From Euzebyella marina (GTDB lineage Bacteria; Bacteroidota; Bacteroidia; Flavobacteriales; Flavobacteriaceae), in assembly GCF_014855515.1 (NCBI RefSeq), contig NZ_JACYFK010000001.1, positions 1,240,001 to 1,304,000 on the forward strand: a stretch of 64,000 nucleotides of DNA, read 5' to 3'. The notes below the pieces were generated by a model. It worked only from the letters and a program-made list of their open reading frames with translations. It had not been told where the DNA came from and searched no databases. Numbering within the stretch: the first letter of the stretch is position 1; every line of letters starts with the position of its first letter. The translations under genes were made by a program, and so were the position numbers. Shown here piece after piece: positions 9,909 through 13,314 of the stretch.

Positions 9909-10002
9909 CCAATAGGTATTAGTCCTATTTCTTTATCATCAACTTTACTTTTTTCGGCCTTTGGCCCTTAGTTATTCTTACAAATTCAACTCTTAAACTA
10001 TT

Positions 10003-11145
10003 ATGTCTACTTTAGATACTACCTCCTTAAAATTGCCTAAAGAAAATTTAGAAGCTGAAGATTTCTTGCCACTATTAGGTACTGACTATATAGAACTGTA
10101 TGTCGGTAACGCCAAACAAGCAGCTCACTATTACATGGCCGCCTGGGGTTTTCAGCCTGTTGCCTATGCAGGGCTCGAAACAGGCTTGAAAGACCGCGTA
10201 AGCTATGTTGTTCAACAAGATAAAATACGCCTTATGCTCACTTCTCCGCTGAGGCCCGGAGGAGAAATTAATAAACATATAGATTCTCATGGCGATGGCG
10301 TCAAGTCAATTGCCCTGTGGGTTGATGATGCGACCAAAAGTTATGAAGAAACCGTAAAAAGGGGTGCTGAAAGTTACCATGCCCCAATTCAAAAGGAAGA
10401 TAAAGAAGGAGCGGTAGTTCTTTCAGGGATTCACACGTACGGCGAGACCGTACATATATTTGTCGAGCGTAAAAACTATAAAGGGGTATTTATGCCAGGT
10501 TTTAGGCCTTGGAACCCTCACTACAGGCCCTCTGATGTCGGCTTAAAATATGTAGACCATATGGTAGGTAACGTAGGCTGGAACGAGATGAACAAATGGT
10601 GTGAGTTTTATGCAAAAGTAATGGGCTTTGCCCAGTTGGTTTCTTTCGATGACAAAGACATATCTACCGAATACACGGCTCTAATGAGCAAGGTGATGAG
10701 TAATGGAAACGGAAGAATTAAATTTCCGATTAACGAGCCTGCCGACGGACGTAAAAAATCGCAAATAGAGGAGTATATCGAGTTTTATAACGGGGCAGGT
10801 GTGCAGCATATGGCCTTGGCTACTGACAATATTATTGAAACAGTAGCTGCCCTAAGAGATCGCGGGGTAGAATTTTTGACCGTGCCATCTAGTTATTATG
10901 AAGATTTGTTGGATAGGGTCGGGGAGATTGATGAAGACCTACTTCCACTAAAAGAACTTGGTATTTTGGTAGATAGGGATGACGAGGGGTATCTGCTTCA
11001 AATTTTTACGAAACCTATATTGGATCGTCCTACAATGTTCATAGAAATAATTCAGCGCAAGGGAGCCAAATCATTCGGTAAGGGTAATTTCAAGGCTCTT
11101 TTTGAAGCGATAGAAAGAGAACAAGAATCTAGGGGAACCCTTTAA
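10003..11145 (+). CDS. hppD: 4-hydroxyphenylpyruvate dioxygenase
   Basis: Non-heme iron enzyme that turns 4-hydroxyphenylpyruvate into homogentisate in tyrosine breakdown. The 380-residue protein has two glyoxalase-fold halves. The iron ligands typical of the family are present: His186 in YVDHMVGNV, His269 in GVQHMALATDN and Glu348 in FIEIIQRKG; the C-terminal gating helix segment (KGNFKALFEAIEREQ) is also there. No homogentisate dioxygenase gene is in the window. The tryptophan dioxygenase gene two genes downstream also serves aromatic amino-acid breakdown, but a promoter and terminator lie between, so they are not one transcript. The 202-base upstream gap holds an inverted repeat. Confidence 0.96.
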   Translation: MSTLDTTSLKLPKENLEAEDFLPLLGTDYIELYVGNAKQAAHYYMAAWGFQPVAYAGLETGLKDRVSYVVQQDKIRLMLTSPLRPGGEINKHIDSHGDGVKSIALWVDDATKSYEETVKRGAESYHAPIQKEDKEGAVVLSGIHTYGETVHIFVERKNYKGVFMPGFRPWNPHYRPSDVGLKYVDHMVGNVGWNEMNKWCEFYAKVMGFAQLVSFDDKDISTEYTALMSKVMSNGNGRIKFPINEPADGRKKSQIEEYIEFYNGAGVQHMALATDNIIETVAALRDRGVEFLTVPSSYYEDLLDRVGEIDEDLLPLKELGILVDRDDEGYLLQIFTKPILDRPTMFIEIIQRKGAKSFGKGNFKALFEAIEREQESRGTL

Positions 11146-11294
11146 TGAGATTCTCGATATAATTAATGCCCATTTCATTTCCCGTGAGAGGGTTTTTAAG
11201 GTAGTTTTTTAATAGGTATTCTTAACGTATTGCCAAATTCTCATTTGTAGGTAAAAATAACTGTTAATGTAATAGTTAAAGTAAGTTAAAACCG

Positions 11295-11324
11295 TTGACA
11301 GTCTTAAAACAAGCAGTAAATTTG
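11295..11324 (+). promoter_or_regulatory. Promoter of candidate small RNA
   Basis: TTG at 11295-11297 and TAAATTTG at 11317-11324, 19 bases apart, match the Bacteroidota vegetative promoter (TTG, then TAnnTTTG) exactly. The expected transcription start is close to 11330, which is the first base of a perfect hairpin. Confidence 0.6.
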
Positions 11325-11329
11325 TTGGT

Positions 11330-11432
11330 GTAAGGGGTGGTTCCCTTACAACTTTAAGTATTGGTTTTTCATAATTTAAAGTTTGGTTGGTTATTTAGGA
11401 AAAGCCCTAACAGTAATGTTGGGGCTTTTTTT
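11330..11432 (+). ncRNA. Candidate small RNA of about 100 nt
   Basis: Not a family I recognise. A consensus promoter fires at about 11330 and a strong terminator ends at about 11432, with no open frame between. Three stem-loops can be drawn: an 8-bp perfect stem TGTAAGGG/CCCTTACA at 11329-11350; a second of 8 bp, AACTTTAA with TTAAAGTT, around 11350-11385; and the terminator hairpin at 11400-11429. The sequence between the second stem and the terminator is U-rich and single-stranded (GUUUGGUUGGUUAUUU). Alternatively it is a terminated leader of the DUF3108 gene 125 bases further on, that is, an attenuator. Called from promoter and terminator geometry only. Confidence 0.45.
11400..11432 (+). 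terminator. Rho-independent terminator of the candidate small RNA
   Basis: A 13-bp stem (AAAAGCCCTAACA with TGTTGGGGCTTTT, one T-G wobble) around a GTAA loop, followed by a run of T. Confidence 0.85.
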
Positions 11433-11556
11433 GATATAGTTGCCAATCGCACCTAAATAATCCTGAAGTTTAGCAGACAATACTTTGGAATAAATTTTGT
11501 TTAAGTTATTGTAATCCGAATAAAATCCCTTTGGCATTATTTATTTTTACAATAAA

Positions 11557-12345
11557 ATGGGCTTTATGAAAAAACTGTTTACTGTACTCTTTTGCTGCTT
11601 TGGTTTTTTTGTTCATGCACAATATGAAAGTTCTGCATTTAAGGTTGGTGAGTGGTTAAAGTTTCGCATGCATTATGGTTTTTTGAATGCCAGTTACGCC
11701 ACATTACATGTCAAATCTGATAATATCGGTGAAGTGCCCGTCTACCATGTAGTAGGTAAGGGCGAAACGACCGGTCTGGCGAGCTTGTTCTTTAAGGTCG
11801 ATGACACCTATGAAAGCTATTTTGGTAAAGAAGATGGCAAGCCATACCGATTCATACGTAAGATTGACGAAGGAGGATATACCAAAGATATCGAGATAAA
11901 TTTTCACCACGATAAGGATAAAGCCGTTCTAAACGACAAAAAGAACAAGAAAAAATATAATTTTGAACTTCAAGATAGCATTCAAGATCTTTTATCGGCT
12001 TTTTACTACTTAAGAAACAACTACGACCCCAAAGATTTGGTCAAAGGGGAAGCGGTAAAGCTTAAAATGCTGTACGACGATGATGGCGTTTTTAATTTTC
12101 AACTTAAATATTTGGGTACAGAAGTACTTAAAACTAAGTTCGGTAAGGTAGAATGTTATAAATTTAGGCCTTTGGTTCAGTCGGGTCGGGTTTTTAAAGA
12201 AAAAGAAAGCCTATCATTGTGGGTTTCGACCGATAAGAATAGAATACCCATAAGAATTCAAGCAGACTTGGCTGTGGGTGCGATCAAAGCAGATCTTGAC
12301 GGATATAACGGACTAAAGCACCAGTTCAAGATTATAATGGACTAA
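11557..12345 (+). CDS. DUF3108 periplasmic protein
   Basis: A 262-residue exported protein of the DUF3108 family, which is common in Bacteroidota and has no settled function. A signal peptide (MKKLFTVLFCCFGFFVHAQ) is followed by the family's opening FKVGEWLKFRMHYGFLNASYATL and a beta-rich body with LKTKFGKVECYKFRPLVQSGR and SLSLWVSTDKNRIPIRIQADLAVG; members probably fold as an antiparallel beta shell. ATG 11566 would start exactly at MKKL and is equally likely; the ATG at 11557 adds three residues. The kynA gene follows 6 bases after the stop, then the M23 lipoprotein 7 bases later, so the three probably share a transcript. Confidence 0.85.
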   Translation: MGFMKKLFTVLFCCFGFFVHAQYESSAFKVGEWLKFRMHYGFLNASYATLHVKSDNIGEVPVYHVVGKGETTGLASLFFKVDDTYESYFGKEDGKPYRFIRKIDEGGYTKDIEINFHHDKDKAVLNDKKNKKKYNFELQDSIQDLLSAFYYLRNNYDPKDLVKGEAVKLKMLYDDDGVFNFQLKYLGTEVLKTKFGKVECYKFRPLVQSGRVFKEKESLSLWVSTDKNRIPIRIQADLAVGAIKADLDGYNGLKHQFKIIMD

Positions 12346-12351
12346 CTTTTA

Positions 12352-13314
12352 ATGAAGGATAAGGAGCGAATAGACTCGCAGATAGAAAAGCTTGAAGAAA
12401 AATATAAAGACTCTGGTCAAGACTTGAGTTCTTACCTCGATGGCCTTCTCCATCAACGATACCTCACCTATTGGGATTATATCAATCTCGATACTCTGCT
12501 TAGCTTACAGCAGCCCAGAACCTATTTTCCCGATGAGGAAATATTTATCATGTACCATCAGATTACAGAGCTGTATTTTAAACTGATTTTACATGAACAA
12601 AAGCAACTGGTAGACGATAAGTCTCAAAACCTTGATTTTTTTATTGAGAAAGTTCGTCGAATCAATAGTTATTACAAAGCTTTGATCTCTTCGTTCAGCA
12701 TAATGATTAAGGGTATGGAAAGGGAGCAGTTTTTACAATATAGAATGGCCTTGCTTCCCGCCAGCGGTTTTCAGTCGGCACAGTTTCGCATGATTGAAAT
12801 CTACTCTACCCCGCTTGAAAATTTGGTACATCAGTCGCAAAGAGAAAATTTTTCCTCTGAAAACAGTATTGAAGAACTTTATGAGCAGATATATTGGAAA
12901 AGAGGTGCTACCGATATGTCAACTGGCGATAAAACACTGACCCTAAAACAATTTGAATATAGGTATACCCCTAGATTGGTAAGAATTGCCAAGCAAGTTA
13001 GGGGTAATACCATTTATCATAAATATTTACAATTACCGGAAACCAAAAGGTATAATAAAGAGCTCGTTGATGCGTTAAAGAAGATGGATATCAACGCAAA
13101 CGTTAACTGGCCTCTTATGCATATGGGATCTGCCCATAGGTATTTGGCCAAGGGAGAAGGGCAAGTTGATGCCACAGGGGGAACCAATTGGAAGGAATAT
13201 CTGCCCCCTAGTTTTCAAAAAGTAGTTTTTTTTCCAGAAATATATTCTAAACAAGAGTTAAATAATTGGGGTAAACAATGGGTAGACCATATATTTAATC
13301 CCGAAAAGAAATAA
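12352..13314 (+). CDS. kynA: Tryptophan 2,3-dioxygenase
   Basis: Heme enzyme that opens the indole ring of tryptophan to N-formylkynurenine, the first step of the kynurenine pathway. The protein has the family blocks L-T-Y-W-D-Y-I-N-L-D-T-L-L and the F-I-M-Y-H-Q-I-T-E-L-Y-F-K motif that lines the substrate pocket, R-M-A-L-L-P-A-S-G-F-Q-S-A-Q-F-R, and W-P-L-M-H-M-G-S-A-H-R-Y with the heme-ligating histidine. At 320 residues it is a little longer than the proteobacterial enzymes (about 280), as is usual in Bacteroidota. It is sandwiched between an exported DUF3108 protein and an envelope peptidase in a tight run; no other kynurenine-pathway gene is present here. Confidence 0.95.
   Translation: MKDKERIDSQIEKLEEKYKDSGQDLSSYLDGLLHQRYLTYWDYINLDTLLSLQQPRTYFPDEEIFIMYHQITELYFKLILHEQKQLVDDKSQNLDFFIEKVRRINSYYKALISSFSIMIKGMEREQFLQYRMALLPASGFQSAQFRMIEIYSTPLENLVHQSQRENFSSENSIEELYEQIYWKRGATDMSTGDKTLTLKQFEYRYTPRLVRIAKQVRGNTIYHKYLQLPETKRYNKELVDALKKMDINANVNWPLMHMGSAHRYLAKGEGQVDATGGTNWKEYLPPSFQKVVFFPEIYSKQELNNWGKQWVDHIFNPEKK

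Follow-up and report, generated by a model that had tools for sequence, protein, structure and literature searches.

In a window of 64,000 nt from Euzebyella marina (the whole stretch of DNA analysed here) we found a conserved gene for a presumably regulatory RNA of about 100 bases, which is present in many genera of the Flavobacteriaceae. The gene has the features of a trans-acting base-pairing sRNA, namely a promoter and a terminator of its own, a conserved structure and a conserved seed. We think it probable that this gene stands alone and that its product is a trans-acting antisense sRNA, which would dampen TonB-dependent and related uptake at translation starts; that the RNA is expressed, pairs and represses is predicted from the sequence. 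The best-supported predicted targets are exbB and an actP-like symporter gene, together with some of the SusC receptor genes in the window's genome. The locus and its neighbours comprise the following features (window coordinates):

10003..11145, + strand: ORF that we take from its sequence to be hppD (4-hydroxyphenylpyruvate dioxygenase), the upstream syntenic neighbour (upstream in 47/71 loci)
11262..11291, + strand: putative activator site of three GTTAA units, TGTTAA..GTTAAA-N4-GTTAAA, with spacings of 12 and 10 bp
11295..11297, + strand: -33 TTG, present here and in 8/51 related promoters
11317..11324, + strand: -7 box TAAATTTG of the sigmaA promoter, 19 bases after the TTG (TAnnTTT in 49/51, TAnnTTTG in 41/51)
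11330..11432, + strand: sRNA gene (predicted transcript), fold z -7.1; matched at 11328-11432 with 113 bits by covariance model R1, which was built from 38 rows, the window's own copy among them
11330..11349, + strand: hairpin 1, 8 bp, starting at the first base of the transcript, with a conserved GUGGU in or beside the loop and a covarying stem
11350..11383, + strand: hairpin 2, a 10-bp stem capped by an inner hairpin; its 3' arm carries the AAUUUAAAGU part of the antisense core
11365..11399, + strand: antisense core UUUUUCAUAAUUUAAAGUUUGGUUGGUUAUUUAGG, a conserved block complementary to the translation starts of exbB, actP and SusC
11384-11396, + strand: linker (putative toehold), the mostly single-stranded part of the antisense core
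11397..11432, + strand: intrinsic terminator with a 15-16-bp stem, ending in seven T; its sequence varies with compensation (9/9 counted pairs two-sided)
11486..11499, + strand: sigma54-like element TGG-N8-TTG, the likely promoter of the DUF3108 operon (50/52 main-type copies, 3/52 reversed controls)
11557..12345, + strand: gene for a DUF3108 protein (PF11306; Pfam E 8.7e-58), the downstream syntenic neighbour (downstream in 65/71 loci)

The predicted 103-nt transcript folds into three hairpins at -40.5 kcal/mol, compared to a mean of -20.3 (sd 2.8) for 200 dinucleotide shuffles, none of which reached so low an energy (0/200; z -7.1). A preliminary description of the locus had proposed one RNA of about 100 nt, whose first base opens an 8-bp hairpin and which continues through a second stem to a terminator reaching 11432, with no open frame across the element. 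All of these structures are present in sequence and fold, the stems and the synteny are conserved, and the 411-base gap between the end of hppD (11145) and the start of the DUF3108 gene (11557) holds no ORF of 60 aa or more. An 8-codon ORF on the minus strand (MKNQYLKL) was rejected, as the T-run and the promoter lie on the plus strand and the frame is broken in variant copies (by eye). A generic sigma70/terminator scan of positions 10000-13000 was uninformative, with 7 promoter-like sites versus 9.0 expected, and its 4 terminator-like sites do not include the sRNA terminator. According to the predicted pairing of 156 distinct sequences, AUUUAA is mostly paired (mean pairing >0.5 in 147) and the GUUGGUUA linker is unpaired in 97 (mean pairing <0.2), and is therefore open in most sequences, not in all.

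Of 298 family genomes searched with the covariance model, 82 gave a match at E<=1e-8 and 149 at E<=0.001 (122 of 236 genera), where the first number is the count from the model-search table and the further 67 genomes were counted by score. Some of the weak matches arise by chance, since among five inspected same-family loci with E >1e-6 two (L393, L394) keep hppD and DUF3108 and three (L392, L396, L397) have neither. An order-level sample gave matches at E<=0.001 in 28 of 196 genomes; 25 of these belong to the same family, and the other three matches score poorly, with E no better than 1.3e-4. When 299 family genomes were searched at the DNA level, 49 gave long matches at E<=1e-18 (about 87-100% identity), and more distant copies came up besides; the tally of 298/299 at E<=1 is meaningless because terminator-like fragments match. 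Carriers among the matches listed are Zobellia, Maribacter, Arenibacter, Cellulophaga, Allomuricauda and Christiangramia, and further Salegentibacter, Gillisia, Kordia, Robiginitalea, Galbibacter and Capnocytophaga, the names being taken from at least 120 listed stretches (4 of 120 are not the RNA, by eye). The RNA is also present at 17 inspected loci of one large genus, probably Flavobacterium, with DUF3108 downstream in 17/17 and hppD upstream in 16/17. The window's genome holds a single copy; elsewhere there is one, sometimes two to four model matches, weak ones counted. Two loci carry tandem copies, about 310 bp apart in L012 (genome G226) and about 280 bp apart in L068 (genome G180), and contig C1 of genome G025 has three copies resembling those of Capnocytophaga loci. 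A second DNA match in the window's own genome (C2:299710) was discarded, as only a similar terminator stem is found there.

The neighbourhood of the gene is conserved as well. At 71 loci found by BLAST, some with neighbours cut off by the locus ends, DUF3108 lies downstream on the same strand in 65 and kynA in 58, while upstream, again on the same strand, we found hppD in 47, a patatin-like gene in 25 and one or the other in 61. In the 38-row alignment, 13 of the 14 consensus pairs of hairpin 1 and the terminator show two-sided changes. Pairing is kept in 92.1% of the pairing cells versus 73.9% in shuffles, falling to about 58% if the partner is slid by one column, and 0/500 shuffles were as good on any of five measures. 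Stem conservation in relatives with syntenic flanking genes, on which the RNA was originally said to stand or fall, is thus what we observe (DUF3108 in 65/71, hppD or patatin-like gene in 61/71, 13/14 pairs covarying). The covariation proposed earlier for all three stems holds for hairpin 1 and the terminator, and not for hairpin 2, which shows none in the main type and is in another register or weak in the distant types. The 77-nt core is near-identical among main-type copies. As the 38 rows were picked by the core pattern, the invariance of the core there is partly due to construction; without core-based selection, the pattern is kept in 69 of the 71 BLAST-found loci (L049 and L052 being the exceptions).

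As to the start of the gene, the promoter had been described as exact. Indeed TTG, 19 bases and TAAATTTG are all present in the window; the -33 TTG is conserved in just 8/51 relatives, and therefore the exact match at -33 is mostly particular to the window's genome. A repeat GTTAAA-N3-5-GTTAAA, starting at -54 to -58 from the hairpin, occurs in 49 of the 51 main-type upstream regions, with a spacing of 10 bp in 48 of those 49, and the third unit TGTTAA lies upstream of it in 43/51. No other copy of the GTTAAA repeat was found in 1.264 Mb of the genome, where the site at the sRNA promoter stands alone. From its sequence, the sRNA promoter looks like an activator-dependent sigmaA promoter. TAnnTTTG is the sigmaA -7 box of F. 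psychrophilum, for which sigma54 -24/-12 sites are likewise described (PMC9723704, here and below cited from an extract of that paper).

The most conserved part of the RNA reads UUUUCAURAUUUAA...GUUGGUUA, and the reverse complement of the core is TAACCAACC..AAACTTTAAATTATGAAAA, with the AUG included. Outside the sRNA, the complementary pattern was listed 11 times; we examined 10 of these occurrences (L114, L145, L151 and L179, exact, among the matches listed, and 6 of 7 from a scan of 120 genomes), and in every case an ORF begins at that ATG. These ORFs comprise 17 to 1420 codons, several being cut by the end of the stretch, and their N-termini are mostly signal-peptide or lipoprotein-like (by eye). 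Thus the core is the antisense counterpart of a kind of translation start seen in Bacteroidota. Shorter motifs are not enriched: among 949 ORFs in 1.264 Mb of the window's genome, AACCAAC was found near starts 30 times versus 31 times for its reversal, and in 48 sRNA genomes we counted 25 sites of the 13-mer TAACCAACCAAAC outside the sRNA, compared to 43 for its reversal. We inspected 21 of the 25 sites; four of them lie upstream of transporter-like genes, namely members of SSF and SBF (Pfam) and, by eye, an NCS1-like permease gene and a SulP-like gene (site at -46), and the NCS1-like protein has no Pfam match. The overall duplex energies of the 949 own starts mostly reflect long interrupted duplexes and are too noisy for target calling. 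All starts share some complementarity: for random genes of the own genome (n=200) the z value is -3.7 against the core and -2.1 against the linker, and the kynA control starts given below reach -3.5. Given the absent motif enrichment and this mild excess of random genes, we expect few targets, or imperfect ones, and attach little weight to small z values. A side observation concerns a 492-aa permease-like protein (G000:C1:653913-655391), whose start is preceded by TAACCAACCAAAC at a distance of 22 bases and whose core duplex (-25.1 kcal/mol) is the best among the 949 own starts; its 472-aa form gave no Pfam match.

The product of exbB is the proton channel that drives TonB. Against the core, the exbB start region reaches a mean duplex energy of -22.4 in 37 sRNA genomes compared to -12.4 for shuffled sequences (z -21), where the rows include one wrongly picked start (L440) and are not independent, since exbB UTRs are conserved among relatives. 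In 10 of the 11 genomes without an sRNA match (G005 was left out) the values are -11.6 and -12.3 (z +0.9), 'without' denoting no match under strict filters, with congeners of G015 and G019 having weak matches. The difference between the two sets (p 1.3e-6) has to be read with caution, as the genomes are relatives of one another and the two sets come from different clades, so that p-values overstate independence. A representative exbB start (L450) pairs with the core at -25.2, which is matched by 0/949 own starts, 1/3000 dinucleotide-shuffled cores and 2/3000 shuffled UTRs, and the drawn duplex spans most of the UTR. In the window's own genome, exbB ranks 3/949 and exbD 8/949 by core duplex. 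For the variant-type genome G025, where the tests covered 0.8 of 2.6 Mb, exbB ranks only 68/610 by the core and 38/610 by the linker.

The actP-like sodium:solute symporter gene (PF00474) was chosen from the genes with a 13-mer site via one genome (G028) and then tested elsewhere. In 30 sRNA genomes, namely the loci returned from 45 genomes with an actP match, a set that includes G028 itself and two carriers of the variant RNA (G219, G098), the start pairs with the linker at -13.0 versus -9.3 kcal/mol for base-shuffled sequences (z -9.2), and 2/300 shuffled linkers do as well. Control starts from main-type loci gave z values of +2.4 (hppD), -0.9 (DUF3108), -3.5 (kynA) and +0.7 (M23). In genomes without an sRNA match the mean is -9.5 (p 0.016), based on 8 usable starts of 21, as the rest had neither ATG, GTG nor TTG where the match placed the start. 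In the large genus with the variant RNA, two actP starts showed complementarity neither to the main-type linker nor to that of their own type (-5.0 to -6.8; -6.0 and -6.8 with the own type), and the window's own actP start is weak (-10.3). For SusC, the 21 starts in the own genome pair with the core at -15.4, compared to -12.2 for 454 other signal-peptide-like genes (p 1.6e-5), and the difference is also seen among starts beginning with ATGAA (p 0.004). With the linker alone, 18/200 shuffled linkers are as good for 30 SusC starts, and the 9 SusC genes of the variant-type genome G025 are not significant (p 0.24). The window's genome has 59 matches to the SusC/RagA family TIGR04056, with 35 ORFs over the cut-off, a polysaccharide-degrader profile; the Flavobacteriaceae are leading marine polysaccharide degraders.

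As the core is complementary to the starts of nutrient-uptake genes, the RNA would probably turn down their production, and we propose the following course of events. An activator bound to the GTTAAA direct repeats, possibly in answer to a physiological cue, would switch on the sigmaA promoter, giving an RNA of about 103 nt that ends at its own terminator. Hairpin 1 would cap the 5' end and hairpin 2 would partly hide the 3' half of the antisense core, leaving the linker UUUGGUUGGUUA largely open as a toehold. The linker could then nucleate on an AACYAAC-type sequence just before the start codon of a target mRNA, and pairing would displace hairpin 2 and spread to the start codon, first via AUUUAA and then via UUUUCAU against AUGAAAA. 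The resulting duplex in front of the start codon would block the ribosome. In enterobacteria, OmrA/B, MicA and RybB repress outer-membrane proteins at the start codon, and the predicted action on outer-membrane uptake genes is of the same kind (the sequences were compared via Rfam only). To our knowledge, Bacteroidota mRNAs have no Shine-Dalgarno sequences, and few sRNAs of the Flavobacteriaceae have known targets. If true, the model would show how antisense RNA acts in a phylum without such sequences, and if the predicted exbB pairing holds, post-transcriptional control would be tied to all TonB-dependent uptake; the predictions are specific down to the bases of the exbB 5' UTR. Tentatively, and with rather more doubt than confidence, we extend this to a throttle working throughout the family: by pairing with nearly the whole exbB 5' UTR the RNA would limit the energiser common to all TonB-dependent receptors, while also dampening SusC and the actP-like symporter, so that one sRNA would scale total outer-membrane uptake, and the core would act generally against the translation starts of envelope genes in bacteria without Shine-Dalgarno sites.

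The closest parallel is FopS/GibS of Bacteroides thetaiotaomicron, a Bacteroidota sRNA acting at SusC-type translation starts, as is predicted here; pairing of FopS is reported to stop SusC translation, with EMSA, in-line probing and in-vitro translation reported for FopS-10 (PMC11697453, likewise cited from an extract). In contrast to FopS, which has 14 paralogues in B. thetaiotaomicron (12-15 per genome) and is conserved in the Bacteroidaceae, the flavobacterial RNA is mostly single copy with fixed neighbours, and where FopS has a single-stranded 5' seed followed by a terminator (PMC11697453), the flavobacterial RNA has a covarying 5' hairpin and, before its terminator, hairpin 2. A FopS-like complementarity of the seed to SusC starts is seen in the window's genome and not in G025 (p 1.6e-5 with 21 genes and p 0.24 with 9, as given above). 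Our best reading is that the RNA would work like the Bacteroides FopS and is not a member of it. An Rfam search, proposed earlier as a check, gave no family at gathering score in the window. None of the sub-threshold matches (PyrR, MicC, Thr_leader, Spot_42 and others) has an E below 0.13, and we rejected them as probable chance driven by the terminator. FopS, deposited in Rfam according to PMC11697453, is absent from the 14 sub-threshold matches at 11146-11600 in the release used, which may lack its model.

A different possibility, which we consider unlikely, is that the RNA is a trans-acting sRNA with mainly other targets, such as metalloproteases, and that the matches to exbB, actP and SusC largely reflect a shared style of 5' UTRs. 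The short-motif counts, which are not enriched, and the mild complementarity of random own starts are in line with it, as are the failure of SusC in G025 and of actP in two variant-type carriers; exbB and actP, however, beat composition-matched shuffles and neighbouring-gene controls. The example comes from Rfp18 of Flavobacterium psychrophilum, which is strongly structured and conserved beyond its species, as is the RNA described here, and is reported to affect metalloprotease mRNAs (PMC9723704). Rfp18 reportedly pairs with them via its third stem-loop (PMC9723704), whereas for the RNA of the window pairing is predicted via the linker and hairpin 2; compared by description, the two may or may not be identical. 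In the extracts of the literature on flavobacterial and Bacteroidota sRNAs we recognised no description of this RNA, the candidate sRNAs there being compared by description only. It may correspond to an Rfp RNA of F. psychrophilum, a set of which 85 were newly described (PMC9723704), or to a candidate sRNA of F. columnare (PMC5395568, extract).

Less likely still, the molecule is a structured sRNA that mainly binds a protein, rather than mRNA, via the conserved GUGGU loop and the GGUUGGUU repeats. Such binding would account for the G, U, G and U of the loop being invariant in the 38-row alignment and for the near-identity of the 77-nt core, which exceeds the needs of a short seed. However, when reverse-complemented the core reads as a translation start, AUG included, and the complementarity is present in separate genes. 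Protein binding and mRNA pairing could also both be true.

Downstream of the terminator we found a second promoter-like element: TGGHH-N6-TTG lies between the terminator and DUF3108 in 50 of the 52 main-type copies, compared to 3/52 in reversed controls. The DUF3108-kynA-M23 run is therefore probably under the control of its own sigma54 promoter. The preliminary description had named as its alternative an attenuated or riboswitch-like leader of this operon, whose hairpins and terminator would sense something and allow read-on, but although the RNA does lie upstream of DUF3108 on the same strand in 65/71 loci, we regard this as very improbable because the sigma54-like element separates the two in 50/52 copies so that no promoter appears to be shared, DUF3108 gave no match downstream at L058, L060, L061, L068 and L070 despite room (L033 is cut by the contig end), tandem copies exist (L012, L068), and inspection of the fold showed no alternative antiterminator pairing.

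Returning to the antisense sRNA gene and its own promoter, we observed an inverted repeat TATGC-TT-GCATA upstream of the -7 box in the distant copies L058, L060, L063, L065, L066 and one copy of L068, in which the GTTAAA repeats are less regular; this suggests that these copies might use a different regulator. As a separate observation, the window's genome has an RpoN-like sigma54 gene, recognised by eye, at a distance of about 1.4 kb from its exb gene cluster (G000:C1:324605-329797).
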